Source: Rhodoferax potami
GTDB lineage: Bacteria > Pseudomonadota > Gammaproteobacteria > Burkholderiales > Burkholderiaceae_C
Assembly: GCF_032193765.1 (NCBI RefSeq)
Contig: NZ_JAVBIJ010000002.1
Coordinates: 71,134 to 135,133, forward strand
DNA: 64,000 bases
Direction: 5' to 3'
How positions within the stretch are numbered: the first letter of the stretch is position 1; each line of letters opens with the position of its first letter. The position numbers were made by a program, and so were the translations under genes. Of this stretch, positions 3,666 through 63,857 are shown piece after piece. Under the pieces are notes generated by a model. That model did not search any database. It was not told the origin of the DNA and saw nothing but the letters and a program-made list of their open reading frames with translations.

Positions 3666-4130
3666 ATGCGCCATACGCAAGCCATCACCAATCTGTTCCG
3701 GGCGCTGGAGAAATTTGGCGTCGCACAGGCGCAGTGCCGTGCCGATGGTCGCTATTCACTGAGCTACGACGGTGGCCGGCGGCTGGACATTCACGCTTTG
3801 CCAGATGGACGTCTGGTGCTGGAAGCAACGCTGGCCGTATTGCCCGAATCTGTCGCCGCCCGGTCCGCACTCATCCAAAAGGCGTTGCGGTTTTCAACGG
3901 CGCGAATGCAGATTCGGCACGACACGCTGTGTCTGCTTGCCGATGCACTTGTCCTGCAGTGTGCGGTGCCCGACCGGGCAGGGCCCGTGGCCGCGCTTTC
4001 CGCGCTAGAGCACTTTCTCAATTCGGTCGATGACTGGGGGAGTGCGATCAACCCCGCAGCCGAGTCGACTGCAGCGGTGCGCCAAGCCGTGCGGGTGCAG
4101 CCCGCATCGCGATCCGCGCTTCAACCATGA
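3666..4130 (+). CDS. CesT/Tir-type type III secretion chaperone
   Basis: The 154-residue acidic product reads as a class I effector or component chaperone. The order of elements is that of the CesT fold: an N-terminal helix (ITNLFRALEKFGV), a strand (GRYSLSYDGGRRLDIHAL), then DGRLVLEATLAVLPE, and a final helix starting ALSALEHFLNSVDDW. Such chaperones bind secreted substrates as dimers in the cytoplasm. The partner is not identifiable here. The start at ATG 3666 lies 16 bases after sctF and the stop overlaps the sctC start by 4 bases (4127-4130), so it belongs to the operon. The last 25 residues are low-complexity Ala/Arg/Ser and may be a tail. Confidence 0.65.
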   Translation: MRHTQAITNLFRALEKFGVAQAQCRADGRYSLSYDGGRRLDIHALPDGRLVLEATLAVLPESVAARSALIQKALRFSTARMQIRHDTLCLLADALVLQCAVPDRAGPVAALSALEHFLNSVDDWGSAINPAAESTAAVRQAVRVQPASRSALQP

Positions 4131-6298
4131 ACGGGGAAGGCCGTTTTTGCGCGAAGCTGGTGGCCGCGCTGGTGCTGTGTGCGGCGACGGGGTTCATGCC
4201 TCGGTCAGACGCCTCGCCTCTCCCGTTTGACAGCAGTTCGTATGCCTACCATGCGAATGACACACCACTCGTGAAGATGCTGACCGAGTTCTGTTCGAAC
4301 TTCGGTATACAACTGCAGATGGACACCGGCATTGCCACTCGCATGAGTGGCAGGCTGGGCGCACCATCAGCGTCCGAGTTTCTGAACACGGTGACGGCCT
4401 CCTCAGGTCTGGACTGGTTTTACTACGCAGGTACCGTTTACGTGACACGCGTGACCGAACGGGACACGCAGGCCCATGCCATTTCGCGCGAGTCCATTCC
4501 AGGACTGAAGCGTGCCCTGTTGGACCTGAAGGTATTGGATGAGCGCTTTGGCTGGGCTACCTTGCCGGAACAGGGCATGGTGGTGGTCACAGGGCCACCG
4601 GCTTACCTGGACCTGGTTGCCAAAACCATGCGCACGGTGCAGGCCGCACCCACCGGGCAGCAGATGGTGGTGTGGAAGTTGAAATACGCCAACGTCGAAG
4701 ACCGCCAGGTCACCGTTCGCGACAAGACCACCCTCATTCCCGGCATTAAGAGCTTGCTGCAAGCGTTGGGTGGCAGCCGCTCCGATGTGGTGGTGAAAAA
4801 TGCGAATGGGCAGGACAGTGTTTCTCGGCTTGAGTCCTTGAAGCCGGCGCCTTCCATCGGAGGCGGCGGGGCCGCAAGCCCGCCTTCCGGTTCGAGCCTC
4901 GATGCGGGTGCCGCAGGGGGGCAGGGCGCAACGCCCACCCTGCCTGCCGGTGCTGCCGAAACCACAGCACCTGGCCGGCCCCAGTTACTCTCGGGCCGGG
5001 GGGTCACCATCGAGGCCGACGTTCGACTCAATGCGATCGTGATGAAAGGCCCCGCCGATCTGATTGCAGGCTACCAAGCCCTCATTGCTGCACTGGACAC
5101 GCCTGTTGGCTTGGTTGAGATTGAAGCCATCACCATCGATGTCAACAAGTCGCGCCTGGAAGAGCTGGGAATTGACTGGAGCGCTAACCTCCGCAACGTC
5201 AGCGCGGGCTTCGGCGTCGCCAATCAGCCGGTAGCGCCTGGCGTGTTGTCGCTGGGCTACCGGGGCGCCGCCGCAGCGACCACGGTGGTGGCCGATCAGG
5301 CGTCTGCGTTGCTCGCCCGTATACGCTTCCTGGAAACCACAGGCGATGCCTATGTGGCGGGAAAGCCCTCCATTCTCACGTCCGACAACCTAAGCGCCTT
5401 GATAGACCTGAGCCAGACCTTCTATACAAAGGTGACGGGCGAACGCGTGGCCAATCTCACGCCCGTCACAGTGGGCGTCATGCTCAAGGTGTCGCCGCGC
5501 ATCGTCACCACCGAGGCTGGCCAGACAGAGATTCAGCTTGTCATAGACATCGAAGACGGGGCTCTGGTGGACCGCACCGGCCTGGATCTGCCCGTGGTTC
5601 AGCGCACCACCATCAGCACGCAGGCCACGATCCTGGAGGGCCAGAGCTTGCTCATTGGCGGTTACGACACAGAAACCCAACAAAACAGCATGGAGAAAGT
5701 CCCGCTCCTGGGAGATATACCCAAGCTGGGCGCGTTGTTTCGTTCCACGCGGGTGGATCAGCAGCGCAGGAAGCGCATGTTTTTGATCACGCCACGCATT
5801 GTCTCGATGGGCGCCCCCACCCTTGCGATCGCTCGGTCTACACAGGTGCCGACTGAAGCCATGACCTTGCAGCCCCTGGTAGCCAAGCCTGAGCCAGCTG
5901 CGCCACCACCGCCTACCCTGTCAAGCACTGCTGCCGCGCTGGAGAACAGCACTCAGGAGGCGGAGACAGCAGCCATCCGGCGCGCGATCACCGCGTGGGC
6001 TGAAGCTTGGAGCAGGCGCGATATCACCCGTTATCTGGACGCATACTCGGCAGACTTTACGCCTGCTAACGGACAATCACGCCAAGACTGGGCGAAGGAT
6101 CGTCGCGCCCGAATCGAGCAGCGCAAGTTCATCCGCGTTCGAGTAAGCCAACTTCAGGTGGAGCTGAAGCAGTCAGATGCTCATGTGAGATTCGAGCAGT
6201 CTTATGAATCTGACGGTATCAACGCTACTAACGTCAAAATATTGGAGTTGAGCAACTCAGGCGGCCGCTGGCTAATTGTTCGCGAAAGAGCTTTGTGA
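4127..6298 (+). CDS. sctC: Outer-membrane secretin SctC with an extra C-terminal NTF2-like domain
   Basis: SctC forms the outer-membrane ring channel. The 723-residue product has a signal peptide (residues 1-30, LVAALVLCAATGFMPRSDA). N0/N1 ring domains follow (SYAYHANDTPLVKMLTEFC; LPEQGMVVVTGPPAYLD), then an N3 domain after a Gly/Ala/Pro linker at about 245-290. The secretin core spans about 290-565 (VEIEAITIDVNKSRLEELGI, LLIGGYDTETQQNS, VPLLGDIPKLGALFRS, RRKRMFLITPRIV). SctC proteins normally end soon after that. Here a Pro-rich linker (PEPAAPPPPTLSS) leads to about 110 more residues (IRRAITAWAEAWSRRDITRY ... GRWLIVRERAL). These resemble SnoaL/NTF2-like domains of the kind found on Cds6-type periplasmic proteins. 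The added domain would face the outside or periplasm; its function is unknown. Confidence 0.9.
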   Translation: MNGEGRFCAKLVAALVLCAATGFMPRSDASPLPFDSSSYAYHANDTPLVKMLTEFCSNFGIQLQMDTGIATRMSGRLGAPSASEFLNTVTASSGLDWFYYAGTVYVTRVTERDTQAHAISRESIPGLKRALLDLKVLDERFGWATLPEQGMVVVTGPPAYLDLVAKTMRTVQAAPTGQQMVVWKLKYANVEDRQVTVRDKTTLIPGIKSLLQALGGSRSDVVVKNANGQDSVSRLESLKPAPSIGGGGAASPPSGSSLDAGAAGGQGATPTLPAGAAETTAPGRPQLLSGRGVTIEADVRLNAIVMKGPADLIAGYQALIAALDTPVGLVEIEAITIDVNKSRLEELGIDWSANLRNVSAGFGVANQPVAPGVLSLGYRGAAAATTVVADQASALLARIRFLETTGDAYVAGKPSILTSDNLSALIDLSQTFYTKVTGERVANLTPVTVGVMLKVSPRIVTTEAGQTEIQLVIDIEDGALVDRTGLDLPVVQRTTISTQATILEGQSLLIGGYDTETQQNSMEKVPLLGDIPKLGALFRSTRVDQQRRKRMFLITPRIVSMGAPTLAIARSTQVPTEAMTLQPLVAKPEPAAPPPPTLSSTAAALENSTQEAETAAIRRAITAWAEAWSRRDITRYLDAYSADFTPANGQSRQDWAKDRRARIEQRKFIRVRVSQLQVELKQSDAHVRFEQSYESDGINATNVKILELSNSGGRWLIVRERAL

Positions 6299-39429: not shown

Positions 39430-40509
39430 ATGCGAGCCCTAGCCGATCTACTTCCTGAAGACACGATGCAACCACATGTTGCAAAGGCAGTTACTGCATC
39501 AGGAAAAAAGGAAGCGGCAAAATCAGCACTGAAACCAGCAACCAAGCCCCGTACAGTTGCAGAGATCTCGGATAAGAGCAAAGACTTTTTGGCGAAACGA
39601 GTCGAAAAAGCCAAGAAAGCATTGGAATCTGAAACTGCTGGGGAAGTCGTTGTCCGAAGGGTTCCAAGCAGTGCAAGTATCGAGCAACGAGTATTGCAAG
39701 CCGTTCTGCCGTTGTGGGACGATGAAAACAGAGCTGTCCCAAACCATTTCATCCGCTCTGGTCTATTCACCGTGAACAGCGGTCTTCAACGCGAGTTCAT
39801 ACCTGATCTAAAAATTGCCTCGCTCTCCAATTTGGATGTGCTCTACAGAGGCGAAGAGCTACATCAGTCAGACCTAACGGTCTGGATGGCCTTGATAAAT
39901 TTGGCTCGAAACAAGCCCTTGTCCGAAGGCATTTTCTTCACCGGATATCAGATCGTGACCGACTGCGGCTGGCGTCTGCATTCTGATAGCTACAAGAAAG
40001 TCAAAGACGCGATCAAGCGATTGAAAGTGACCGCGATATCTATCTCGGCCAAAGGCAATGAGTCGGCCTATACCGGATCGTTGATTCGTGACTATGCGTT
40101 CACCGATGCTAATTCAGAAGATGGCGATACAAAGTGGATGGTTCGATTTGAGCCGCGCATATCCGCATTGTTCATGGAAGACACAACGACTTTTCTGCAA
40201 TGGGAAGAGCGTAAGCGGATCGGCCCCCGCGCCAAGCTCGCGCAGTGGTTGCACGCTTTCTACTTCTCCCACCGGGGCGACCCACTTCCAAACGCTGTTT
40301 CTCGTCTACACGAGCTTTGCAGATCCAAAGATTCATTGAGTAGCTTCCGACGCAACCTCAAGACCGCATTGATGCACCTCCAAGAGCGCGACTTGCTGGA
40401 ATCCTTCACTGTCGTAAACGACATGGTTCGAGTCACTAAGTATTCCAAGCCACGCCTTGCAGCGGTCAAGAAGCCTCGTATAACAACGAAGAAAAAAGTA
40501 ACAGAGTAA
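39430..40509 (+). CDS. trfA: TrfA-family plasmid replication initiator
   Basis: A protein of 359 residues related to IncP TrfA, which binds iterons and opens the origin. The N-terminal 75 residues are Lys/Ala-rich and probably flexible. The winged-helix part follows: NRAVPNHFIRSGLFTVNS, LYRGEELHQSDLTVWMALIN, IFFTGYQIVTDCGW, then KKVKDAIKRLKVTAISISAK and TTFLQWEERKRIGPRAKLAQ. These line up with the TrfA landmarks (initiation-type WH1/WH2). The start at ATG 39430 is 63 bases after the last iteron. An internal start giving a shorter form, as in RK2, is possible but not shown by the sequence. Confidence 0.88.
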   Translation: MRALADLLPEDTMQPHVAKAVTASGKKEAAKSALKPATKPRTVAEISDKSKDFLAKRVEKAKKALESETAGEVVVRRVPSSASIEQRVLQAVLPLWDDENRAVPNHFIRSGLFTVNSGLQREFIPDLKIASLSNLDVLYRGEELHQSDLTVWMALINLARNKPLSEGIFFTGYQIVTDCGWRLHSDSYKKVKDAIKRLKVTAISISAKGNESAYTGSLIRDYAFTDANSEDGDTKWMVRFEPRISALFMEDTTTFLQWEERKRIGPRAKLAQWLHAFYFSHRGDPLPNAVSRLHELCRSKDSLSSFRRNLKTALMHLQERDLLESFTVVNDMVRVTKYSKPRLAAVKKPRITTKKKVTE

Positions 40510-49146: not shown

Positions 49147-49361
49147 TGGGTATTTCGGACGAACGTGAACAGCCATTTCGGGCAACGTGAACGGGCGTTT
49201 TGATAGCTTGCAGCTAAGGATTTCGGCATCGTGAACGTTGATTTCGGAGTCGTGAACAGCGAATGTGGCGCAGGCGTATGCCTGCATAGAAGTGGGGACT
49301 GAAGTTGCGCAAATGAGACCACCCTGGCGGGTAGGCTGCCTGATTTTTGACAGGAGGCCGG

Positions 49362-50894
49362 ATGCCCGCCCGAAAGATCGCGATGCGCAAAGTTAAAGAA
49401 ACATTGAGATTGAGCCTGGAGTGCAGGCTACCCTACGATCAGATATCCCAAGCCCTGGGACTGTCCAAAGGCGTCATCTCCAAATACATCCGTCAGGCTC
49501 TTGCAGCAGGACTGGATTGGAGTGCCATAGAAACCTTGGATGAGGGAGAGTTACACCGCAAATTGCGGGGCCAGCAAAGTGAGCCCGTTGTCTTTGTTGC
49601 GCCTGACTACGCACGGGTGCACTTGGAGCTGCGCGGCAAAGGCGTTACGTTGATGCTGCTGTGGCAAGAATACTGCGCCAAGTGGGCCGAAGACACCCAG
49701 GTCAGGCCTTACCAGTACACCCAATTCTGCGAGCACTACCGCCGGTTTGCCAAGACACTGAAGCGCTCAATGCGCCAAGTGCATCGCGCCGGAGAAAAAC
49801 TGTTCATTGACTACGCTGGCCCGACCATTGTGCTGGCCGAGGGTGGTAAAGCCAATATCTTCGTGGCCGCCTTGGGCGCCTCAGGTTACGCCTTCGCGTG
49901 GGCGACACCTGCACAGACCACGGCAGATTGGCTGGAGGGGTGTGTCAAGGCGCTGACCTTCTATGGTGGAGTGCCGCAGCTAATCGTGCCGGACAACCCG
50001 CGCGCAGTGATTGCGCAGGTCAGCCGTTACGAGCCCCGAGCTACTGACACCGTGCTGGACTTTGCATGCCATTACGGCTGCAGCGTACTACCTGCGCGTG
50101 CCTACCACCCGCAGGACAAGGCCAAAGTCGAGTCCACGGTCCAGATTGTTGAGCGCTGGATATTGGCGCGACTGCGGCATCAATCGTTTCTTAGCGTCAC
50201 TGAGGTCAACGCAGCCATTGCCCCTTTGCTGGAGTATCTGAACAACAAACCGTTTCAGAAGCTACCCGGATGCCGGGCAAGCGCGTTTACCGCCCTGGAT
50301 GCGCCAGCATTGATGGCCCTGCCGCCTGAACCGTTTGAGCTTGCGGTATTCAAGACGGTCAAAGTACACATTGACTATCACGTCGAGTTTGAAGGCCACC
50401 GCTATAGCGTTCCACATGCACTGGTGGGCCAGACGCTGGAGCTGCGGGTGACCCGCACCACACTGGAGATTCTGAACCGGGGCCAGCGGGTGTGCAGCCA
50501 CCTCAGAAGCGCTCGCCGGGGCGGCTTCACCACGACGGATGAACACATGCCAGAGGCACACCGGGCGCATGCACAGTGGAGTCCGGAGCGGCTTCTGGCC
50601 TGGGGCGAGCAAATCGGCGTGGCCACGGCCGGGGTAGTGAGCAAGATGCTGGAGCGCCAGCGCCACCCTGAACATGCCTACCGGGCCTGCTTGGGTTTGC
50701 TCTCCCTGGGGCGCCGATACGGCCATGCCAGGCTGGAAGCGGCGAGCTTGATGGCGCTGCAGTTGGGCACCTGCAAATACAGCCATATCCGCGACATCCT
50801 GGTCAACCGCGGGGATCAGTTGCTTAAGACCGAGGCCCCCGAGTGGAGCAGCCCGGCACATGCTCACGTGCGCGGGCCTGGCTATTACCAATAG
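49362..50894 (+). CDS. istA: IstA-like transposase (IS21 element 2, copy B)
   Basis: A 510-residue DDE transposase, as in copy A apart from the Val/Ala change in FTALDAPALM. Complete, with the same ribosome-binding site AGGAGG before the ATG. Confidence 0.92.
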   Translation: MPARKIAMRKVKETLRLSLECRLPYDQISQALGLSKGVISKYIRQALAAGLDWSAIETLDEGELHRKLRGQQSEPVVFVAPDYARVHLELRGKGVTLMLLWQEYCAKWAEDTQVRPYQYTQFCEHYRRFAKTLKRSMRQVHRAGEKLFIDYAGPTIVLAEGGKANIFVAALGASGYAFAWATPAQTTADWLEGCVKALTFYGGVPQLIVPDNPRAVIAQVSRYEPRATDTVLDFACHYGCSVLPARAYHPQDKAKVESTVQIVERWILARLRHQSFLSVTEVNAAIAPLLEYLNNKPFQKLPGCRASAFTALDAPALMALPPEPFELAVFKTVKVHIDYHVEFEGHRYSVPHALVGQTLELRVTRTTLEILNRGQRVCSHLRSARRGGFTTTDEHMPEAHRAHAQWSPERLLAWGEQIGVATAGVVSKMLERQRHPEHAYRACLGLLSLGRRYGHARLEAASLMALQLGTCKYSHIRDILVNRGDQLLKTEAPEWSSPAHAHVRGPGYYQ

Positions 50895-50914
50895 AGACGA
50901 ATGGAGAGACCCCC

Positions 50915-51688
50915 ATGATGATGAATACGACATTAGCCCAACTGCGTGAATTGAGGCTGGAGGGCTTGGCCACGGGGCTGCAGGAGCAGCTCAGTCAAGC
51001 AGGCGTGGCGGCCATGAGCTTTGAAGAGCGGTTGGCGCTATTGGTAGACAGGGAGGTGCACTGGCGCAATGACAAGCGCCAAACCCGCCTGTTGAAACAG
51101 GCTAGGCTGAAGTATCCGCAAGCGGCTATCGAAGACATTGACAGCCGCGCCGGGCGCGGCATTCAACGCAGTGCAGTGATGAGTCTGGCCCTGGGCGGGT
51201 GGGTGCAAAGCGGACATGCTGTGCTGATTACGGGGCCGACCGGGGCGGGTAAATCCTGGCTGGCCTGTGCGTTGGCCCAACATGCGTGCCGGCGGGGCTT
51301 CAGTGCCCACTACCAGCGGGTGCCACGACTGGGGGAGGAATTGCGTATCCGCCATGCCAACGGCACGTTTGGCAAGTGGCTCGATCAGATCCGCAAAACC
51401 GATGTCCTGCTGCTCGATGACTGGGGCATGGCTGCGCTGGACAGCCAGAGCCGGGCGGACTTGCTGGAGATCATTGATGACAGGACATCAAGTCGGGCCA
51501 CGATCATTACCAGTCAGTTGCCCATTGAGCATTGGCACGAGTGGATTGGTGACCCGACAGTGGCCGATGCGATGCTGGACCGGTTAATGGAGAACCATCA
51601 TCGCTTCACGATCACGGGTGAGTCGTTGCGAAAGAAACCTGCACCCGGAAAAGGCAAAACCGCCAACGCTGAGTCCGCGGCGGGTTGA
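50915..51688 (+). CDS. istB: IstB-like helper ATPase (IS21 element 2, copy B)
   Basis: A 257-residue AAA+ protein, as in copy A, with GPTGAGKSW (Walker A) and LLLDDWGM (Walker B) intact. It starts 20 bases after the istA stop. Confidence 0.92.
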   Translation: MMMNTTLAQLRELRLEGLATGLQEQLSQAGVAAMSFEERLALLVDREVHWRNDKRQTRLLKQARLKYPQAAIEDIDSRAGRGIQRSAVMSLALGGWVQSGHAVLITGPTGAGKSWLACALAQHACRRGFSAHYQRVPRLGEELRIRHANGTFGKWLDQIRKTDVLLLDDWGMAALDSQSRADLLEIIDDRTSSRATIITSQLPIEHWHEWIGDPTVADAMLDRLMENHHRFTITGESLRKKPAPGKGKTANAESAAG

Positions 51689-51918
51689 TTAAGAAAAGCC
51701 CCAATCAACCAACCTGACAAGGAGTCACTCTGCCGAAAAACCACCTCGGCCTAAAATAAAAGAGCGCAATATCAGTTCCTCACTGCCGCTGCGTTCATAT
51801 TGGCCGGAATCCATGTTCACGATCCCGGAATCGCCGTTCATCTTCGCCGAAATACGCAATGGGGGCTAAAACATGACCGTAGAAGGGGAAATTGACGCCA
51901 AATTCGGCGGCGGTTTCA

Positions 51919-51970
51919 TCATGTGAACAAGTCCCCCTCAACGGCAGCTCCTGAGGCTGTTGTGCAGACC
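51919..51970 (+). repeat. Left 52-bp inverted repeat bounding the DGR-like segment
   Basis: Begins TCATGTGAACAAGTCCCC and ends TTGTGCAGACC. It is the exact reverse complement of 60822-60873. It lies 60 bases inside the IS21 element 2 end. Those 60 bases contain a short reading frame (51873-51926, ending KFGGGFIM) that looks like the tail of a lost gene. Confidence 0.95.
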
Positions 51971-51974
51971 ATCC

Positions 51975-52349
51975 CTAGACCGTCTCAAACCACTGCTGCC
52001 AGCGCGCCGCCTGCCGGCTGATAGCCTCCAGCCGTATGCCGAACTCTGTCAGCGCGCCATGCGAAACCAGCTTGAGCTTCCAGCCCAACAGCAAAAAGCC
52101 GCGTATCACCTCGATACCGGCGCGAACCTGGCGCACGTACGCCGCGCCGTCACGCCGGCCAAGCTGACTCTGCTTGTCCACCGCGTTAGCTAGCACGACC
52201 AGCCGCAAACACTCAGCCAGCTCCGACAGAATGCGATCGCCCACCGCATAGCGAAAAGGTTTGGGCAAGTTGTTATGCATCGGGTAATAAAGCTGGCACA
52301 GGCTCAGCAAGTCTGCAAAAATCTGAGGGTGTTTGAACGTGCGTTCCAT
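51975..52349 (-). CDS. avd: Avd-like accessory variability protein of a DGR
   Basis: Avd proteins are small basic four-helix bundles that form a pentamer, bind the DGR reverse transcriptase and its template RNA, and are required for mutagenic copying. The 124-residue product fits in size and pattern. LPKPFRYAVGDRILSELAEC matches the typical first long helix, followed by LRLVVLANAVDK, RQVRAGIEVIRGFLLLGWKL and the closing helix LTEFGIRLEAISRQAARWQQ. GGAGAA lies just before the ATG at 52349. The frame extends far upstream across the RT gene, but that is antisense noise. It is divergent from the RT gene, with 8 bases between the two likely starts, which is unusual because avd and RT are normally co-directional. 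Confidence 0.8.
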   Translation of the reverse strand: MERTFKHPQIFADLLSLCQLYYPMHNNLPKPFRYAVGDRILSELAECLRLVVLANAVDKQSQLGRRDGAAYVRQVRAGIEVIRGFLLLGWKLKLVSHGALTEFGIRLEAISRQAARWQQWFETV

Positions 52350-52357
52350 ACTTCTCC

Positions 52358-53583
52358 ATGACTCAAAACGACATTGCCCGGCAGTTGTTTGCCTGCGCCG
52401 CCAAAGCCAGCAACAGCGAACACAAGCGCGCATCTGCTGCAGCTGCCCAACATGGTGCTTGCATTGGCGCATGACATTGCCAGCGGCCACTACAGGCCCA
52501 GCGGCTTCACGGTCTTTGCCGTCACCGACCCCAAGCTGCGCGAAATCTTTGCTCCGGCCTTCGCCGACCGCCTGGTCCAGCAATGGCTGGTACAACACAT
52601 TGAACCCTGGTGGAACAAGCGGTTTATTGACGACAGCTACGCCAACCGGCAAGGCAAGGGCACGCAAGCCGCTATCGGGCGCCTGCAGCACTTCATGCGC
52701 CAACCCGGACACCGGTGGTACTGCCAACTCGACATCCGGGCCTTCTTTCCCAGCATCGACCGCCGCATCCTGCTGCAGCTGCGGCAAACCGCCTTGCCCA
52801 AACTGCCTTGGCCTGCGTCCACACGCCAGCAGCTGGACCAAGTGGCAACCGCCATCATTCAACAATCGCCCACCGAGCCTCCGCCCCGGCGCAGCGGCGA
52901 CATCGACCTGCTGGCGCGCGTACCGCCGCACAAGTCTCTTTTTGGCGCACCGCCCGGTGTTGGCATGCCGATTGGCAGCCTCACCAGCCAGTTCTTTGCC
53001 AACGTCTACCTCAACGAGCTCGATCAGTTCGTCAAACACACCCTCAAGGTGCGCGGCTACATACGCTACGTTGACGACTTTGTCCTGCTGGCTGATGCCC
53101 CCCAGACCCTGCTGGTGCACAAAGCCCGCATTGAACAATTCCTGCAAGAGCGGCTGCGCCTGCAGCTGCATCCCACAAAAACTGTTCTGCAACGCTGCAG
53201 CCAGGGCGCTGATTTTCTGGGCGCCATCGTCCACCCCCACCACCGCCTGACCCGTCAACGCGCAGTACGTGCTTTGAAGCGGCGGCTGCATTGGTTCAGG
53301 GCCTTGGTGTTCCCGCACGATACGCACCACCCCATGCAGCAGCCCAGTGGCAGTTGGCAACGCTGGCTGGCCAACCACCAGGCCATCCACGCCCACGGGT
53401 ACCGCGCTGCTGCAGCGCATGCTGGCCACCCTCAACAGCTACTACGGCATCTATGGGCACGCCAGCACCTGGCGCTTGCGCAAGCACATCTACGAGCACG
53501 AACTCGGCCCCCTCAAAACCTTCTTCCTGCCGGACGGCCCCAACTACCGCCACCTCAGAATCCGCAAGGCATGGCTGCCTTGA
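52358..53583 (+). pseudogene. DGR-type reverse transcriptase, apparently frameshifted near both ends
   Basis: RNA-directed DNA polymerase that in DGRs copies a template repeat with adenine-specific errors. The main frame (52374-53400) has GHYRPSGFTVFAVTDPKLRE, FIDDSYANRQGKGTQAAIG, CQLDIRAFFPSIDRRI (first catalytic Asp), GMPIGSLTSQFFANVYLN (the DGR-type SQ box) and YIRYVDDFVLL (YVDD). The natural N-terminus (MTQNDIARQLFACAAKASNS, ATG 52358) is in a different frame that should join near 52420. The natural C-terminus (MLATLNSYYGIYGHASTWRL to IRKAWLP, stop 53583) is in a third frame joining near 53400. Each join needs one base skipped. The catalytic domain is intact, and a TTG at 52374 could start it. 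Group II intron or retron RT is less likely because of the SQ box, Avd and target. Confidence 0.8.
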
Positions 53584-53610
53584 ACAAGATGAGCGCACGG
53601 CTGCGGGTGG

Positions 53611-53627
53611 CTCAAACAAGGTTTGAG
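53611..53627. other. Hairpin between the RT gene and the target gene
   Basis: CTCAAAC-AAG-GTTTGAG forms a perfect 7-bp stem with a 3-base loop, 24 bases beyond the target stop codon. DGR variable regions are often followed by such a hairpin that helps target recognition; it could also be a shared terminator, but no T-run follows it. Confidence 0.45.
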
Positions 53628-53650
53628 AATGTCGCTCCGCGAAAACCGCC

Positions 53651-53800
53651 TCACAATACCTGAAAGGCAAAGTAAGCGGTGAAGTTGTCAGTCCAGGCGA
53701 CGACTTCGCCACCGTACATGCCGGCACCAAGGTTGACCATGGCGTGGCCATTTGGCGAGGGCGTCGCAGACCAGTAGTTGACGATGGGGAGCCAACCAGC
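53651..53800 (-). other. Variable-region-like end of the target gene
   Basis: Codes for residues about 2190-2240, from WLPIVNYWSATPS to the stop. After GHAMVNL most codons at expected exposed positions end in C or T (GGT GCC GGC, GGT GGC, GTC GTC GCC, GAC AAC TTC ACC GCT TAC). This pattern would arise from AAC/AAT template codons after adenine mutagenesis. No second copy of this sequence was found in the window. Confidence 0.55.
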
Positions 53801-56800
53801 CGGCACGCCGTACTGACCGGTTCCGGTTCCACTGCCGTTAATACCATCCCAAATCGCCAGATAGTCGTTGTAGGTAGCGTTGCCGTTGGGCGTAGGGTCA
53901 TTAAGGTTATCCCCGCTAACTAGCGGATTTGCGCTGTAACTGGTGCCGTTTTTAGCACCAAAACTCGTTGGCTTACCGTCGACCCCCACCGGGCCGCCAT
54001 AAGTAGGCAATTTCACCGTAACGCCGTTAATCGTGAACGTCCGGTTGCTCTCGGTGATCGCGCTGGCAATAGTTCCTAAATTGATGGCTAATTGTTCTAA
54101 TGAAATGGCATCCGCGGAATCCGCAACGCCATTGCCACTTTTGTCATAGAAGTAATACCAATTACCTTCCACTTGAATTGGAGCAATAAGCTTACCCATT
54201 GAACCCAGGCTAATTGAGGCGTCGCCGGGTTGCGAGTTGGATGTCGTAAAGTTCAGCGTATTCAGGTCGCTGATGCCTGCATAGGTATTGCCTGCGGTAT
54301 CTGTAATGGCTGTGTTGCCTATTTGTACGGCGTATTGCTTGCCTCTCGCCAAATCGCTGCTCGGGTTGATGGTGAGCGTATTGCCGCTGATGCTGAGCTG
54401 GTTGCTGTGGCTGGCAACATCAATGACTACATCAGCAGCGCCATCGATCGCCTTGAGCGTGATGTTGCCGCTGCCCAGCGCAATGTTTTCACTGAAGCTC
54501 AGCGTCAGATTGGCGCTTATGCCCACATCTGTAGCGTCGTCCACAGGCGTGTTGCTGCTCAATCTGGGGCTTTCTTTATCTATCGTCACGTTGAGACTTG
54601 AGGCCGCAGACTCGTTGCCCGCCGCATCGGTGGCTTTGACCGTGAGGGTGTGCGTGCCATTGACCAGGGCACTGCCCGGCGTGATGCTCCACTTGCCGTC
54701 GCCACCGGTCGTGGCGCTGCCCACTTGCGTGCTGCCGTCATACAGCTTGACGCTGCTGCCGGATTCAGCCGTGCCGCTGATGGTGGGTGTGTTGTTGTTG
54801 GTTACGCGGTCGCTGTTGCTGATGCCCGTGTCCGAGGCTGCATCCAGCACCAGGGTGGGTGCCGCAGGTGCGGTGTTGTCCAGGGTGTAGGTCTGCGCGC
54901 TGCTGAGGTATTGACTACCATCTTGCTTGGTCAGCCTGAATACTATGTTGTTGACACCGGAATTCAGAGTCACGCCCGTCCAAGTGATGGCGCGATCAGT
55001 GACCATGCTGTTTATTTTTTCCCAGGTAGCGCCGCTATTCACAGATCCTTCCAATGTGTCACCAGCAGAGATAACGGTGCTGAGTTTTGCACTGATGGTC
55101 TGGTTATTGACCGTTGTTACAAAATCTGTGGAGAAACTGCCGGTGTCGTTTGACAATTGGACATCGCTTGGAGAAAAAGCTGCGCCAGATACCAAGGTTT
55201 GAAGTTTGCTCAGACTGTTGATGGCGCTGCCATCATCGGCGCTGTTAGCTATTGCTTGACGCACTACTGCCAGGTTGTCCGCCGTAACGCCCTTGATCCC
55301 CAGCTGCTCGAGCTGGGCCATGCTCAGCGAGGCTCCATTGGCCGACGCTGCCGCCTCCAATACGGCATTGGATGCAAGCGCTAACGCCTTGATCTCTGAC
55401 ACCGTATCCGCGTCAATCTTGTTCTTGCCGTCGATCACGCTGCCCAGCAGCGCTGCCTGAGTGATAGTAGTGACTTCGCTCACGCCTATCTTGCCGTACT
55501 CAGCCAGACTGGGCAGATTGGCAGCGTCTGTGTTGCCTGCCACCGCGTCGGCCGCGGCCAGCACTTTTCGGTAGGCGTCGACAATGCCCTGTACTTCAGC
55601 GGCCGTGTCCTTGTTCGCACCGGGCAGTCCCTTGAGGGCATCGTTGATCGATGCAATGTTGCCCGCATCCACCCCCGTGACTCCGATGTCCTTGTATGTC
55701 TGAGTCGTAGGTGCGCTCTGTCCGTTAGCGCCGTTGTAGCTTTGCAAACCAGTCAGCACGCTTGCGACTTGCGTTGTCGTTGCACTCACCACGCTTTGCA
55801 GCTTGGTCAGGCTGTCGATGGCGCTGCCATCATCGGCGCTGTTAGCTATTGCTTGACGCACTACTGCCAGGTTGTCCGCCGTAACGCCCTTGATCCCCAG
55901 CTGCTCGAGCTGGGCCATGCTCAGCGAGGCTCCATTGGCCGACGCTGCCGCCTCCAATACGGCATTGGATGCAAGCGCTAACGCCTTGATCTCTGACACC
56001 GTATCCGCGTCAATCTTGTTCTTGCCGTCGATCACGCTGCCCAGCAGCGCTGCCTGAGTGATAGTAGTGACTTCGCTCACGCCTATCTTGCCGTACTCAG
56101 CCAGACTGGGCAGATTGGCAGCGTCTGTGTTGCCTGCCACCGCGTCGGCCGCGGCCAGCACTTTTCGGTAGGCGTCGACAATGCCCTGTACTTCAGCGGC
56201 CGTGTCCTTGTTCGCACCGGGCAGTCCCTTGAGGGCATCGTTGATCGATGCAATGTTGCCCGCATCCACCCCCGTGACTCCGATGTCCTTGTATGTCTGA
56301 GTCGTAGGTGCGCTCTGTCCGTTAGCGCCGTTGTAGCTTTGCAAACCAGTCAGCACGCTTGCGACTTGCGTTGTCGTTGCACTCACCACGCTTTGCAGCT
56401 TGGTCAGGCTGTCGATGGCGCTGCCATCATCGGCGCTGTTAGCTATTGCTTGACGCACTACTGCCAGGTTGTCCGCCGTAACGCCCTTGATCCCCAGCTG
56501 CTCGAGCTGGGCCATGCTCAGCGAGGCTCCATTGGCCGACGCTGCCGCCTCCAATACGGCATTGGATGCAAGCGCTAACGCCTTGATCTCTGACACCGTA
56601 TCCGCGTCAATCTTGTTCTTGCCGTCGATCACGCTGCCCAGCAGCGCTGCCTGAGTGATAGTAGTGACTTCGCTCACGCCTATCTTGCCGTACTCAGCCA
56701 GACTGGGCAGATTGGCAGCGTCTGTGTTGCCTGCCACCGCGTCGGCCGCGGCCAGCACTTTTCGGTAGGCGTCGACAATGCCCTGTACTTCAGCGGCCGT

Positions 56801-59800
56801 GTCCTTGTTCGCACCGGGCAGTCCCTTGAGGGCATCGTTGATCGATGCAATGTTGCCCGCATCCACCCCCGTGACTCCGATGTCCTTGTATGTCTGAGTC
56901 GTAGGTGCGCTCTGTCCGTTAGCGCCGTTGTAGCTTTGCAAACCAGTCAGCACGCTTGCGACTTGCGTTGTCGTTGCACTCACCACGCTTTGCAGCTTGG
57001 TCAGGCTGTCGATGGCGCTGCCATCATCGGCGCTGTTAGCTATTGCTTGACGCACTGCTGCCAGGTTGTCCGCCGTAACGCCCTTGATCCCCAGCTGCTC
57101 GAGCTGGGCCATGCTCAGCGAGGCTCCATTGGCCGACGCTGCCGCCTCCAATACGGCATTGGATGCAAGCGCTAACGCCTTGATCTCTGACACCGTATCC
57201 GCGTCAATCTTGTTCTTGCCGTCGATCACGCTGCCCAGCAGCGCTGCCTGAGTGATAGTAGTGACTTCGCTCACGCCTATCTTGCCGTACTCAGCCAGAC
57301 TGGGCAGATTGGCAGCGTCTGTGTTGCCTGCCACCGCGTCGGCCGCGGCCAGCACTTTTCGGTAGGCGTCGACAATGCCCTGTACTTCAGCGGCCGTGTC
57401 CTTGTTCGCACCGGGCAGTCCCTTGAGGGCATCGTTGATCGATGCAATGTTGCCCGCATCCACCCCCGTGACTCCGATGTCCTTGTATGTCTGAGTCGTA
57501 GGTGCGCTCTGTCCGTTAGCGCCGTTGTAGCTTTGCAAACCAGTCAGCACGCTTGCGACTTGCGTTGTCGTTGCACTCACCACGCTTTGCAGCTTGGTCA
57601 GGCTGTCGATGGCGCTGCCATCATCGGCGCTGTTAGCTATTGCTTGACGCACTGCTGCCAGGTTGTCCGCCGTAACGCCCTTGATCCCCAGCTGCTCGAG
57701 CTGGGCCATGCTCAGCGAGGCTCCATTGGCCGACGCTGCCGCCTCCAATACGGCATTGGATGCAAGCGCTAACGCCTTGATCTCTGACACCGTATCCGCG
57801 TCAATCTTGTTCTTGCCGTCGATCACGCTGCCCAGCAGCGCTGCCTGAGTGATAGTAGTGACTTCGCTCACGCCTATCTTGCCGTACTCAGCCAGACTGG
57901 GCAGATTGGCAGCGTCTGTGTTGCCTGCCACCGCGTCGGCCGCGGCCAGCACTTTTCGGTAGGCGTCGACAATGCCCTGTACTTCAGCGGCCGTGTCCTT
58001 GTTCGCACCGGGCAGTCCCTTGAGGGCATCGTTGATCGATGCAATGTTGCCCGCATCCACCCCCGTGACTCCGATGTCCTTGTATGTCTGAGTCGTAGGT
58101 GCGCTCTGTCCGTTAGCGCCGTTGTAGCTTTGCAAACCAGTCAGCACGCTTGCGACTTGCGTTGTCGTTGCACTCACCACGCTTTGCAGCTTGGTCAGGC
58201 TGTCGATGGCGCTGCCATCATCGGCGCTGTTAGCTATTGCTTGACGCACTGCTGCCAGGTTGTCCGCCGTAACGCCCTTGATCCCCAGCTGCTCGAGCTG
58301 GGCCATGCTCAGCGAGGCTCCATTGGCCGACGCTGCCGCCTCCAATACGGCATTGGATGCAAGCGCTAACGCCTTGATCTCTGACACCGTATCCGCGTCA
58401 ATCTTGTTCTTGCCGTCGATCACGCTGCCCAGCAGCGCTGCCTGAGTGATAGTAGTGACTTCGCTCACGCCTATCTTGCCGTACTCAGCCAGACTGGGCA
58501 GATTGGCAGCGTCTGTGTTGCCTGCCACCGCGTCGGCCGCGGCCAGCACTTTTCGGTAGGCGTCGACAATGCCCTGTACTTCAGCGGCCGTGTCCTTGTT
58601 CGCACCGGGCAGTCCCTTGAGGGCATCGTTGATCGATGCAATGTTGCCCGCATCCACCCCCGTGACTCCGATGTCCTTGTATGTCTGAGTCGTAGGTGCG
58701 GTGCCGCCATTACCCGCTCCCCCTACTATCAACTTAAAGCCATCTTGTGCATTTGGCAAGGAAGCGAGCGCTTCAGAAGACAGCTTACGAATCAGACCAG
58801 ACCCAACAAGTGCATCAATTTGAACAGCTGAAAGAGATGCAGCTTGAGTTCCAGTCATGCCCGATATGCCCGCTCCGATAAATGAAATTTTCGTACCGGA
58901 CAAGCTACTGATTGCAACCGGAGGGATCCAACCAATTTGTTGCGCGGTCATCAATGAAAGCTGAGTTGACGTGAGGCCAGCAATATCCTTCGGCAAAGCT
59001 GAGACCAAATCTTGTTGCCCAAGAGCTTTAACGTCACTAGCCCAGCCGGGGGCAGAATTGCGAGAAGCTTCACTGAAATTAAACTGATAACAAACTACGT
59101 TGTAAATATCAACCCCTAACTTCGTCCCGACTGTATCTGCTCCTTGAAACAAGATCCGCTGCACATTGTTGCTAACCGTCGGAACGACACTAGAGGAAAT
59201 ACCATTTGCAACTGCCGCTAATGTAGCCTCCATGCCGACCAAGTTTTGATCTGCTCCCGAAAGAGCGGCAAGTGCATATCCGTATTTTTTTGACTCAGCC
59301 TCTGCTGAGGAAAAATTAATATCATTAACAGCTACCGGCTTTACCCTAGTGATATCAGTAAGACCAAAAACTGTTGAGACCCTTGAGTTTATAGAGTTGA
59401 CTGAAGTTATATCCAACCCCGAGCCCCCTGCCACTTTACCTTCAATATCCAACTGGCGGACGGCGATTTCTGTAATCGGGGAAATAACCAACGTGCACTG
59501 CCCAGCTCCATTGATAACCGCTGCTGCACGCAAATTCACCGGCAAATCAATTTGCAATCGACTTGCTTCATCCAAATAATCCGCTCCGGCATCATCGCCG
59601 TCAACAACCCGAGCAATGACCACACCTGTATATTTAGCATCAAAGCTAACAGAATAAGTGCCATCATCATTCACTTTGACTCGACCCAATTCGCCATTAT
59701 TATCGGCTCTCGACACCACAACTGTGAGTTGATTTCCAGCTACGACAGGTCCAGCAACGATAGAACCATTGAGAGTCACCACTCCTGATGCCGACTCAGC

Positions 59801-60373
59801 TGTGGATGGCGTATTCTTTGTGGCATTCACCACAACAGCGGTCGCTGAAAGAATACCTAAGCCACCGGATAAAATACCTAGGCCTGAGGAGGCATTAGAA
59901 ACAACAGAGCTAGCAATTTCTAGAGAATCTATTTCTGAAGCAATATTTGAAATAGCAGCAATTGAAGATGAGCCAGCGCTTGATGGAGATGCCTCCATCA
60001 TTTGACCAAAGCTTTCTGTATTACCTCGATCATCAATTGATAAGATGGGATCCGATTTTGCTGGAGTACCCAAGCGGCTATATGACTCAAGACTGTTGGA
60101 AGTTACAGCTTCAGCCTCTAGGTTTGCGCTACCATCCAAAACGGCTCGCTGGTCTGCGGCAGAATATTCTGGGGGGTCGAGTTCAGCGTTTCTACCAAAC
60201 TCCAAAGGCTCAAGATTTTCTCGATGAGCATCTTCATTCTGTAAGTTGCGTTCACTCTTTTTATTTCGTATCCGCCGATTTCCAAGTTGGACCAAGTCTG
60301 GAGCATTTTTATCAATCGCTGCATCAATATGATTTGTTGAAGGTTTTGCCTTTGCCGAATTCAATTTTTTCAT
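53651..60373 (-). CDS. Giant repeat-containing surface protein, likely DGR target
   Basis: A 2240-residue protein. Residues 1-150 are polar, without a Sec signal; about 160-190 form a Gly-rich hydrophobic stretch (GLGILSGGLGILSATAVVV). About 195-310 form a beta domain (LNGSIVAGPVVAGNQLTVVV; GADYLDEAS) common in large adhesin-like proteins of this group. Six near-identical 199-residue modules follow (about 557-1725). Ig-like domains come next (TPTISGTAESGSSVKLYDGS; VDDATDVGISANLTLSFSEN). The C-terminal 160 residues resemble the C-type-lectin-like fold of DGR targets, ending YWSATPSPNGHAMVNLG to AYFAFQVL. Role inferred: surface display of a diversifiable ligand-binding domain. How it is secreted is unclear; neither an RTX tail nor an autotransporter barrel is visible. 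The ATG at 60373 has only a weak ribosome-binding site (AAGAG). Confidence 0.85.
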   Translation of the reverse strand: MKKLNSAKAKPSTNHIDAAIDKNAPDLVQLGNRRIRNKKSERNLQNEDAHRENLEPLEFGRNAELDPPEYSAADQRAVLDGSANLEAEAVTSNSLESYSRLGTPAKSDPILSIDDRGNTESFGQMMEASPSSAGSSSIAAISNIASEIDSLEIASSVVSNASSGLGILSGGLGILSATAVVVNATKNTPSTAESASGVVTLNGSIVAGPVVAGNQLTVVVSRADNNGELGRVKVNDDGTYSVSFDAKYTGVVIARVVDGDDAGADYLDEASRLQIDLPVNLRAAAVINGAGQCTLVISPITEIAVRQLDIEGKVAGGSGLDITSVNSINSRVSTVFGLTDITRVKPVAVNDINFSSAEAESKKYGYALAALSGADQNLVGMEATLAAVANGISSSVVPTVSNNVQRILFQGADTVGTKLGVDIYNVVCYQFNFSEASRNSAPGWASDVKALGQQDLVSALPKDIAGLTSTQLSLMTAQQIGWIPPVAISSLSGTKISFIGAGISGMTGTQAASLSAVQIDALVGSGLIRKLSSEALASLPNAQDGFKLIVGGAGNGGTAPTTQTYKDIGVTGVDAGNIASINDALKGLPGANKDTAAEVQGIVDAYRKVLAAADAVAGNTDAANLPSLAEYGKIGVSEVTTITQAALLGSVIDGKNKIDADTVSEIKALALASNAVLEAAASANGASLSMAQLEQLGIKGVTADNLAAVRQAIANSADDGSAIDSLTKLQSVVSATTTQVASVLTGLQSYNGANGQSAPTTQTYKDIGVTGVDAGNIASINDALKGLPGANKDTAAEVQGIVDAYRKVLAAADAVAGNTDAANLPSLAEYGKIGVSEVTTITQAALLGSVIDGKNKIDADTVSEIKALALASNAVLEAAASANGASLSMAQLEQLGIKGVTADNLAAVRQAIANSADDGSAIDSLTKLQSVVSATTTQVASVLTGLQSYNGANGQSAPTTQTYKDIGVTGVDAGNIASINDALKGLPGANKDTAAEVQGIVDAYRKVLAAADAVAGNTDAANLPSLAEYGKIGVSEVTTITQAALLGSVIDGKNKIDADTVSEIKALALASNAVLEAAASANGASLSMAQLEQLGIKGVTADNLAAVRQAIANSADDGSAIDSLTKLQSVVSATTTQVASVLTGLQSYNGANGQSAPTTQTYKDIGVTGVDAGNIASINDALKGLPGANKDTAAEVQGIVDAYRKVLAAADAVAGNTDAANLPSLAEYGKIGVSEVTTITQAALLGSVIDGKNKIDADTVSEIKALALASNAVLEAAASANGASLSMAQLEQLGIKGVTADNLAVVRQAIANSADDGSAIDSLTKLQSVVSATTTQVASVLTGLQSYNGANGQSAPTTQTYKDIGVTGVDAGNIASINDALKGLPGANKDTAAEVQGIVDAYRKVLAAADAVAGNTDAANLPSLAEYGKIGVSEVTTITQAALLGSVIDGKNKIDADTVSEIKALALASNAVLEAAASANGASLSMAQLEQLGIKGVTADNLAVVRQAIANSADDGSAIDSLTKLQSVVSATTTQVASVLTGLQSYNGANGQSAPTTQTYKDIGVTGVDAGNIASINDALKGLPGANKDTAAEVQGIVDAYRKVLAAADAVAGNTDAANLPSLAEYGKIGVSEVTTITQAALLGSVIDGKNKIDADTVSEIKALALASNAVLEAAASANGASLSMAQLEQLGIKGVTADNLAVVRQAIANSADDGSAINSLSKLQTLVSGAAFSPSDVQLSNDTGSFSTDFVTTVNNQTISAKLSTVISAGDTLEGSVNSGATWEKINSMVTDRAITWTGVTLNSGVNNIVFRLTKQDGSQYLSSAQTYTLDNTAPAAPTLVLDAASDTGISNSDRVTNNNTPTISGTAESGSSVKLYDGSTQVGSATTGGDGKWSITPGSALVNGTHTLTVKATDAAGNESAASSLNVTIDKESPRLSSNTPVDDATDVGISANLTLSFSENIALGSGNITLKAIDGAADVVIDVASHSNQLSISGNTLTINPSSDLARGKQYAVQIGNTAITDTAGNTYAGISDLNTLNFTTSNSQPGDASISLGSMGKLIAPIQVEGNWYYFYDKSGNGVADSADAISLEQLAINLGTIASAITESNRTFTINGVTVKLPTYGGPVGVDGKPTSFGAKNGTSYSANPLVSGDNLNDPTPNGNATYNDYLAIWDGINGSGTGTGQYGVPAGWLPIVNYWSATPSPNGHAMVNLGAGMYGGEVVAWTDNFTAYFAFQVL
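55190..58704 (-). repeat. Six near-identical 597-bp tandem coding repeats
   Basis: Period is exactly 597 bases (199 codons). Each unit starts PTTQTYKDIGVTGVDAGNIA and ends VASVLTGLQSYNGANGQ. The three N-terminal units read DNLAAVRQ and the three C-terminal ones DNLAVVRQ, a single T/C difference that divides the array in two. The last unit diverges after AINSLSKLQTLVSG. Short frames of 60-79 codons recurring every 597 bases on both strands are shadows of this array. Confidence 0.97.
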
Positions 60374-60821
60374 ATTAGCGCTCTTAGATATTTACATTTT
60401 AATAGTAGCCTTGTTACGAATAAATTCCTTTCAATTCCTTGCTTTTTTTGCATCCATCAAAGGCAATGAAATATTTATGCCTATCACGATTTCCTCAATT
60501 TTTTTCGAATGCAACTCCTCACGAGGCTGACGTGTGGTCAGGCCAGTTGTGACGAGGGAATCCCCCATCTGATTCTGTGAGGCCTGCACGTGATTTCTGC
60601 CTGTCGCTCGCTATTGGGCAAAGACCGATTGCGCATGTGATTCAGAATCAGACGGGCGTGTTCTCGGAGCCCCTCCCCCTGATGGAGTCTCCAGCTGAAG
60701 AAAACAAAGTTCATAAAAAGTCAAATAGTCAGCATATTGAAAGAGGTCGAATTGGGAGGCAAGGTCGGTGAGACCTGCAGGAGACCCGGCGGCAGCGCGC
60801 CCAGTTACTACAACTAGGGCA
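60374..60821. other. Region upstream of the giant gene, no complete gene
   Basis: The first 120 bases are AT-rich and presumably hold the promoter of the giant gene. A leftward open frame of 73 codons (60611-60832, including QFDLFQYADYLTFYELCFLQ) looks protein-like, but begins in the inverted repeat and is not a family I recognise; it may be a fragment. No match to the variable region was found here. Confidence 0.4.
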
Positions 60822-60873
60822 GGTCTGCACAACAGCCTCAGGAGCTGCCGTTGAGGGGGACTTGTTCACATGA
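60822..60873 (-). repeat. Right 52-bp inverted repeat bounding the DGR-like segment
   Basis: The exact reverse complement of 51919-51970. It is directly joined to the IS21 element 2 end at 60874, whereas 60 extra bases separate the two on the left side. Confidence 0.95.
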
Positions 60874-60979
60874 TGCGTATTTCGGCGAAGATGAACGGCG
60901 ATTCCGGGATCGTGAACATGGATTCCGGCCAATATGAACGCAGCGGCAGTGAGGGACTGATATTGCGCTCTTTTATTTT
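60874..60979 (-). repeat. Right-end fragment of IS21 element 2
   Basis: Starts TGCGTATTTCGGCGAAG and matches the outer 106 bases of copies A and B with few changes (GAGGGACTG here, GAGGAACTG there). It is cut by an IS1595 end at 60980. Confidence 0.92.
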
Positions 60980-61365
60980 GGCTCTGTCACCTTATCGTGT
61001 TGGTGAGTACACTTTGGCGCTATGCGCCGCCGAGATTTCCAGCGGTTGGTGGAGTCCTTAGAGTCCCTCAGCCCCCATCAATTGCGTCAACTGGACGAGA
61101 CCGTAAGCAAGCTCGCCCAGCAAACTGCCGTGCGGGAGCTCGTAACTGCGCATGTGGAACGTGAGGGGCAATGCCCTCACTGCCAAGGTAATGCGTTCCA
61201 GCGGTGGGGGACTACTGCGTCCGGGGAGCAGCGATACCGGTGCAAGAAGTGCTTCAAGAGCTTCACCGGGCTCACGGGTTCCCCGTTAAACGGCCTCTGG
61301 CATAAAAGTCTGCTGCTGGAGTACGCCCAGTGCATGAAGGTCGGTTTGAGCGTGCGAGAGACTGC
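60980..61365 (+). pseudogene. Truncated IS1595 element with 5' part of its transposase gene
   Basis: Left terminal repeat GGCTCTGTCACCTTATCG, then the transposase from the ATG at 61022 through the zinc ribbon to SVRETA. At 61366 the left end of IS21 element 3 cuts it. It is identical to the complete copy at 36570 up to that point. Confidence 0.93.
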
Positions 61366-61862
61366 TGTTGATTCCAACTGAACACTGGGCCAATTTAAAA
61401 GGAATTCCAGTCGAAAACTGAGCCACGTTATCCACAATCCTTGCTTCATTTTTAAGCAGGGGTACATAGGAGTGATAGACGTGGGAATCCTCAGCAAACT
61501 CAGACGTATGGTGTTACGTGAGAACGTATCCGTGCGCGAAGCGGCCAGACGGCTGCGTATCTCCAGAAACACCGCAGCCAAGTGGTTGAATGAATCACAG
61601 ATGGTGGAGCCGCGCTACCCACAGCGCGCAGCTGTGCCAAGCCTGCTGGATCCGTATCGAGAGCAATTGGCCAATTGGCTCAAAGCCGACAGTTACCGTG
61701 GCAAACGTGAGCGCCGTAGTGTGCGGGCTTACTTTGAGGCGATCCGTGCCATGGGTTTTACCGGCAGCAAGAATCTGGTTTATGGTTTTTGCAGCAACTG
61801 GCGGCAAGAGCAGGCCAACGCCCCGCGCAATGCGGGGTTTGTGCCGCTGAGCTTTGAACTCG
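61366..61862 (+). pseudogene. Left-end fragment of IS21 element 3 with truncated istA
   Basis: Begins TGTTGATTCCAACTG; istA codons run from 61472 (MIDVGILSKLRRMVLREN, Ile where the other copy has Thr) to FVPLSFEL, then IS21 element 1, copy 3, starts at 61863. Confidence 0.93.
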
Positions 61863-61959
61863 TGTCACGCGCAGTATGAAAATGACACGCAAACGCGGTG
61901 AGGAATTGATACACCTCGACTAACGTGCCAAGCCATCCGAACCATGGATGGGACTGGCA

Positions 61960-63857
<1,898 letters not shown>

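Follow-up and report, generated by a model that had tools for sequence, protein, structure and literature searches.

Does the avd-RT-adhesin segment carried by this plasmid work as a diversity-generating retroelement (DGR), or is it what remains of one? In a DGR, RNA from a template repeat (TR) undergoes reverse transcription that is error-prone at adenines, and the resulting cDNA takes the place of a variable repeat (VR). The stretch analysed, called the window below, is the final 64,000 bases of C2 (135,133 bp), the second contig of a two-contig 4.0-Mb genome. Because C2 carries a TrfA replication gene (39430-40509) and a ParA gene, it is taken as a plasmid. The preliminary description assigned an Avd-like gene, a reverse transcriptase (RT) gene and the gene of a giant protein to a single DGR, placed on an IS-bounded segment of a plasmid with type III secretion genes. 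All of these genes, including those for a type III secretin and for an SctL/HrpE protein, are present on C2. In window coordinates, the features are:

182-970, SctL/HrpE (type III secretion stator-like) gene
4127-6298, secretin gene (type III secretion)
51753..51858, outer left end, common to the right-hand IS1595-family element
51858..51978, truncated IS5-like (DDE_Tnp_1) end on the left, its CTAG (51975-51978) falling at the stop codon of avd
51975..52349, minus strand, avd (accessory variability determinant), 124 aa, intact
52374..53663, plus strand, open frame of the RT catalytic core (RVT_1, SLTSQ, YVDD), 429 codons
53634..53809, minus strand, W, VR cassette in TR position, forming the 3' end of the target gene
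53651..60373, minus strand, target, adhesin-like, 2240 aa (Big_13, Big_5, Ca_tandemer), with a C-terminal C-type-lectin-like domain at about residues 2050-2240
55191..58772, minus strand, six tandem 597-nt (199-aa) units in the target
60814..60875, right IS5-like end, inverted orientation, with CTAG (60814-60817)
60874..61381, plus strand, right IS1595-family end with transposase fragment

As proposed, the segment is bounded by IS ends; these form inverted arms on both sides of avd, RT and target. A repeat search gave outer arms of 106 nt (51753-51858 and 60874-60979, 99% identical) and inner arms of 62 nt (51917-51978 and 60814-60875, 97% identical). The ends are nested around the three genes, those shared with the IS1595 family lying outside and the IS5-like ends with CTAG inside. 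A fuller copy of the inner element holds a DDE_Tnp_1 transposase, and ends of this type presumably belong to the IS5 family. On the outside, an IS21-family element (istA/istB, 49347-51688) in turn cuts off the 51753-51858 end. The IS ends of the segment are found again elsewhere on the plasmid, near IS1595 and DDE_Tnp_1 transposase genes. C2 is rich in IS of the IS21, IS66, IS1595 and IS5-like types, several of them present as near-identical copies.

The Avd-like reading frame exists and lies on the minus strand. Three HMM libraries agree on its product, by weak matches under the curated cut-offs: PHROG 3206 'Avd protein of DGR' (E 9.7e-10), NF033474 (1.7e-8; 34.7 bits for a cut-off of 80) and bAvd PF22296 (9.3e-5; 23.3 bits for a cut-off of 40). 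Its nearest homologues, at 96% and 89% identity, bear PF22296. Comparison of the product with solved structures gave no match. Eighteen plasmid records carry Avd relatives (14 from Vibrio, two each from Aeromonas and Shewanella), and 17 of the 18 cover at least 80% of the query. The frame of avd also belongs to a 486-aa open frame (51975-53435, minus strand) that runs antisense across most of the RT; it was dismissed as a gene, being probably an effect of base composition.

The RT is of the DGR type. Its plus-strand core contains the SLTSQ (52977-52991) and YVDD (53067-53078) hallmarks noted earlier. The best match is 8ub7 (3.6e-35, 125 bits), the next row standing at 60 bits; PHROG 1423 'Reverse transcriptase' is matched at 3.2e-83, and the best NCBIfam row is a group II model at 117 bits, far under its cut-off of 300. 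In a within-DGR tree built from 166 DGR loci and the window (167 leaves, none dropped), the window RT falls, among these DGR loci, inside an inverted-DGR clade (support 0.995) together with L190, L191, L192, L011, L012, L013, L014, L205 (pSbal02), L206 and L207; its plasmid-borne members come from Aeromonas, Shewanella, Vibrio and Yersinia. This clade holds no member with a sense TR: the TR lies opposite to the RT in 9/9 relatives with a detected pair, and no TR/VR pair was found at L014. The inverted arrangement occurs at 16 of the 147 loci with a detected pair, a further 19 loci being without a pair, and seven inverted loci outside the window clade occupy five further places in the tree. Repeat pairs biased to A or T are present at 139 of the 160 loci nearest to the window RT; the base-bias control on 160 loci gave A 130, T 9, G 6 (each also A) and C 0. 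In the window, VR and target lie opposite to the RT, and there is no TR to orient.

The RT gene is, moreover, broken twice. Near 52.42 kb, the frame holding the start, which begins at 52358, stops early, apart from the core frame. Near 53.40 kb (about residue 347), the conserved C-terminal tail continues in another frame, whose stop ends at 53583. RT and target converge, as had been described: the target stop codon starts at 53651, which leaves 67 bases between them. Among 198 related genomes searched with the RT, nine gave E <= 1e-40 and one a close match, the same-genus genome G020, in which start, core and tail form a single frame of 418 codons with a core 96% identical to that of the window. 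Over 315 codons of the core, the two genes differ by 21 synonymous and 6 non-synonymous codons; because non-synonymous differences are few relative to synonymous ones, the frame breaks look recent. A shortened RT retaining the catalytic motifs could still arise from an internal start.

The giant protein of 2240 residues is likewise confirmed, with its ending in ...YWSATPS...FQVL. Structure prediction of its tip from three sequences was useless (pLDDT 33), and prediction from an 18-row alignment succeeded. This alignment comprised the window domain, L013 and 16 of a set of 24 proteins; of the eight left out, one was the window's own and seven had no such domain in their last 75 residues. The model obtained agrees with the C-type-lectin-like fold suggested for the variable domain. 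Foldseek with the predicted tip returned no match at E <= 0.001; its best viral structure was a virion protein of Pseudomonas phage Noxifer (1.7e-3, probability 0.96) and its best PDB match a C-type lectin (E 0.45). Neither Mtd nor TvpA is among the Foldseek matches listed, an absence that carries no weight either way. The target C-terminus has matches in 9 of 198 genomes; the G035 and G085 loci encode a C-terminus like it, and the 3.6 kb examined of each contains no A-biased pair. A search of viral contigs for the domain found no relative.

The G020 locus (L190, 3,696 bp) is complete, in the order avd(-), RT(+), TR(-) and VR(-). Its TR lies about 50 nt past the RT stop, and 577 nt separate it from the VR, located 3'-terminally in the gene of a giant adhesin. 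All 24 mismatches between TR and VR fall at TR adenines, with no gaps (p 5.5e-15). The locus resembles that of the window in its avd (about 96% identical), in its RT core and in the type of target C-terminus; the G020 contig starts with the same IS5-like/avd junction as the left side of the window segment. It differs in that the RT is unbroken, the TR kept and the differences adenine-specific. The order RT, TR, VR, with both repeats on the opposite strand, recurs in L011, L012, L013, L191 and L192, and the TR-VR spacing is 509-578 nt in all six relatives measured; the window has no such spacing. The adenine bias is weaker in L013 (25/33).

What became of the template in the present genome? A repeat search of 50500-62500 found no TR. 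When the whole genome was searched with the G020 TR, only three cassettes, W, T and C, matched at length, and no intact TR was recovered. A search of the same genome with W for a second type of TR gave no match at length beyond these cassettes. Among 103 same-genus genomes, the G020 TR matched at length only in this genome and in G020, next to one 27-nt match in G022 and short matches.

W closes the plasmid adhesin gene and yet stands in TR position. Its RT-side flank is that of T and resembles the flank of the G020 TR; its target side resembles C and the G020 VR. T belongs to a second avd-RT copy (C2:12366-14311), 111 kb away along the contig. The two copies are identical over 51858-53670, and all differences lie in 53671-53791, bar the first aligned base; both RT genes are thus broken in the same way. 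T is in TR position, with TR-type flanks and no long target ORF. It is a mosaic, TR-like first and then VR-like, and retains AACAACAACAAC at its start. A motif like CACAGTGAARACGCAA is found directly upstream of the TR in G020, L011, L012 and L013 (less alike in the last) and of T, where it is doubled; it may belong to the template RNA or to the promoter of that RNA.

C is the VR of a chromosomal copy of the adhesin (2434 aa, seven 199-aa repeats counted in translation; L171 12190-19494). In the parts outside the repeats and VR, the plasmid and chromosomal adhesin genes differ at 4/1671 and 7/1404 nt, and the upstream flank common to both is only about 37 nt, with one mismatch. Within the plasmid target, the 597-nt units are 97-98% identical across the 300-nt stretch compared. 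The number of near-identical 199-aa repeats varies, from six on the plasmid to seven on the chromosome.

Compared with the G020 TR, C has 19 mismatches, 17 of them at A, and no internal indel (p 8e-9). W has 31 mismatches, 21 at A, plus 15 gap columns, and T has 17 of 28 at A; relative to this TR, W has 15 extra nt and T has 9. A comparison of T with W reveals no clear adenine bias (12/29 and 9/29). W and T have in common a middle segment that the G020 TR explains neither in length nor at non-adenine positions. A second template type may once have existed, or blocks of T and W may have been exchanged by further recombination. Since the VR of L192 is one codon longer than its TR, a single extra codon is in itself not strange. 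Positions 1-2158 of the G020 locus align with the T locus, and those from 2212 onward with the chromosomal locus. Plasmid and chromosome thus look, from these alignments, like two halves of one ancestral locus.

Taken together, we consider that the segment is a rearranged remnant of a plasmid-borne inverted DGR, with a probability of about 0.8. The idea of a single DGR system therefore stands as regards its parts, which are real and related to inverted DGRs, but not as regards its working: a TR and an unbroken RT were both looked for and neither was found, so the segment is not classed as a working DGR. In the intact form, as in G020, Avd and RT are transcribed divergently, with the TR opposite to the RT. 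Adenine-mutated cDNA would enter the VR and rewrite the ligand face of the C-type-lectin-like tip; we infer mutagenic copying in this DGR because TR/VR differences are adenine-specific. TR and VR being direct repeats, recombination between them would lose the interval and leave one VR cassette in TR position. The junction is observed, and such a crossover is its simplest reading. It would have left no template in cis and given the VR a TR-side flank. The element is probably dead, since the same two breaks are present in the RT gene of both plasmid copies. On plasmid and chromosome alike the adhesin survives as an intact ORF, and the two tips differ; the adenine signature of the DGR is seen in the chromosomal tip and only in part in the plasmid tip. 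Thus, an inverted DGR that was duplicated and dispersed, and that is probably dead, seems to have left differently rewritten adhesins on two replicons.

The flank that W would have gained may matter for retrohoming. A GC-rich hairpin can form about 35-41 nt after the VR in C, G020, L011, L012 and L191 (the L192 flank is the same); L013 has no VR-side hairpin, which slightly lowers our confidence in the remnant reading. In W, TR flank stands in place of this hairpin flank and can form an AT-rich 7-bp stem. According to the sections of PMC3240598 at hand, efficient retrohoming in BPP-1 depends on a hairpin shortly after the VR, and phage DGR hairpins lie 4-34 bp from the VR and have a GRNA loop. 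The VR-side loops of C, G020 and relatives do not fit this GRNA consensus, and their hairpins may instead be terminators. W might conceivably be a poor acceptor for retrohoming.

Other explanations have to be weighed. The DGR could be active in trans, T serving as template, one of the RT copies yielding enzyme through a frameshift or an internal start, and the chromosomal C acting as acceptor. T has the position, the flanks and the AACAACAACAAC start of a template, C retains its VR-side flank with hairpin, and trans diversification of incomplete loci has been published (Dore 2024, PMC10907252, in the part available). However, both RT copies have the same breaks, and T and C differ by 28 mismatches, of which 11 are at A of T, and 16 gap columns. 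Because these mismatches include non-adenine sites, the present C was not written by T, and activity in trans is improbable. T was also considered as the TR on account of its position and its AACAACAACAAC start, and rejected in that role: most differences from W and C lie off its adenines.

According to a further explanation, the tips differ by ordinary recombination between adhesin alleles, cassettes being exchanged with no reverse transcription. Indels and non-adenine changes do separate the W and T tips, which look as if whole blocks had been swapped, but the adenine bias of C against the G020 TR (17/19) and the adenine-specific differences of the G020 VR (24/24) refute such exchange for C and G020. 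It is likely for part of W and T; as an account of the tip differences as a whole, it is very improbable. Finally, a working DGR acting in cis on the plasmid adhesin can hardly be maintained and is largely refuted: avd and target are both undamaged ORFs and the frame of the RT core, with its two motifs, stays open over 429 codons, but no TR fitting W was found in the window or the rest of the genome, the RT start side and C-terminal tail are out of frame, and W is flanked by TR-side, not VR-side, sequence.

If the segment is the remnant of an inverted DGR, it illustrates a natural route by which a hypermutation cassette loses its template and keeps its product; a sister species retains the intact state, and the chromosome of this genome holds an adhesin copy that was rewritten differently. 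TR x VR recombination might even be regarded as an inbuilt mechanism by which a DGR freezes one chosen adhesin tip. The proposal is conceivable since the two direct repeats, TR and VR, lie about 0.5 kb from each other, so that one crossover removes both the template and the VR-side flank; we nevertheless hold it to be rather doubtful. If true, the plasmid would lock and spread one adhesin tip, the chromosomal copy would keep another, and the fused repeat in template position could seed new mosaic templates, such as T. Whether TR/VR fusion is a common route to fixing a DGR target becomes a testable question.

Several elements of this picture are already known. Inverted DGRs, with the RT on one strand and TR, VR and target on the other, were described in Shewanella baltica OS155 pSbal02, Vibrio sp. 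RC586 and Photobacterium angustum S14 (Schillinger 2012, PMC3521204, in the sections at hand); the window shares with them a VR and target opposite to the RT, plasmid carriage and the RT clade. Like the window, pSbal02 has an adjoining Ig-like target; unlike these systems, the window has no TR, a broken RT and a VR in TR position, and the pSbal02 RT is 42.7% identical. Another cassette with the RT inversed appears in the accessible text of PMC6642488. In Thiohalocapsa PB-PSB1, DGR duplication is linked to transposons, with incomplete loci and with targets apart from RT and TR, as in the present case; the part of that report at hand mentions, however, neither a TR x VR fusion nor a division between plasmid and chromosome (Dore 2024, PMC10907252). 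A leftover target of Treponema denticola has a VR that fits the TR of another strain, with 19/21 mutations at adenines (PMC4891356, sections at hand). It too is a target without its own DGR, whereas the window genome keeps RT remnants, twice. Inverted architecture and plasmid carriage, transposon-linked duplication and leftover targets are therefore not new, as these excerpts attest. No description of a TR/VR fusion was found in the portions of the literature searched, including PMC8144416. Within that literature, as far as searched, what is new is a VR standing in TR position and a single inverted DGR apparently divided between plasmid and chromosome.

Inverted DGRs beside large surface-type proteins thus lie on plasmids of Vibrio, Shewanella, Aeromonas and Yersinia, and occur in this genus too. 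Two Aeromonas caviae plasmids, pWP2-W18-ESBL-01_1 (L191) and pWP5-W18-ESBL-02_1 (L192), are arranged like the window, with a 'four helix bundle protein'(-), RT(+), TR(-) and a giant Ig-like target(-). They differ from it in that their TRs are retained and an IS30 gene lies between RT and TR. Their repeat pairs are:

L191, 14723-14884 and 15276-15437
L192, 14418-14579 and 14971-15135

The 162-nt TR is identical in both and the VRs are different, with 22 differences from the TR (18 at A) in L191 and 17 (16 at A) in L192. Judging from these repeats, the Aeromonas inverted DGR appears to have rewritten giant Ig-like plasmid proteins, and different tips beside the same TR suggest that plasmid adhesins diversify in nature. 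The open RT frame runs for 342 codons in L191, fewer than the 472 in L192. L205, L206 and L207 (Yersinia hibernica pCFS1934) are plasmid inverted DGRs next to Ig-like, OmpA-like or inverse-autotransporter genes, and in L207 an IS1 gene occupies the expected place of avd.
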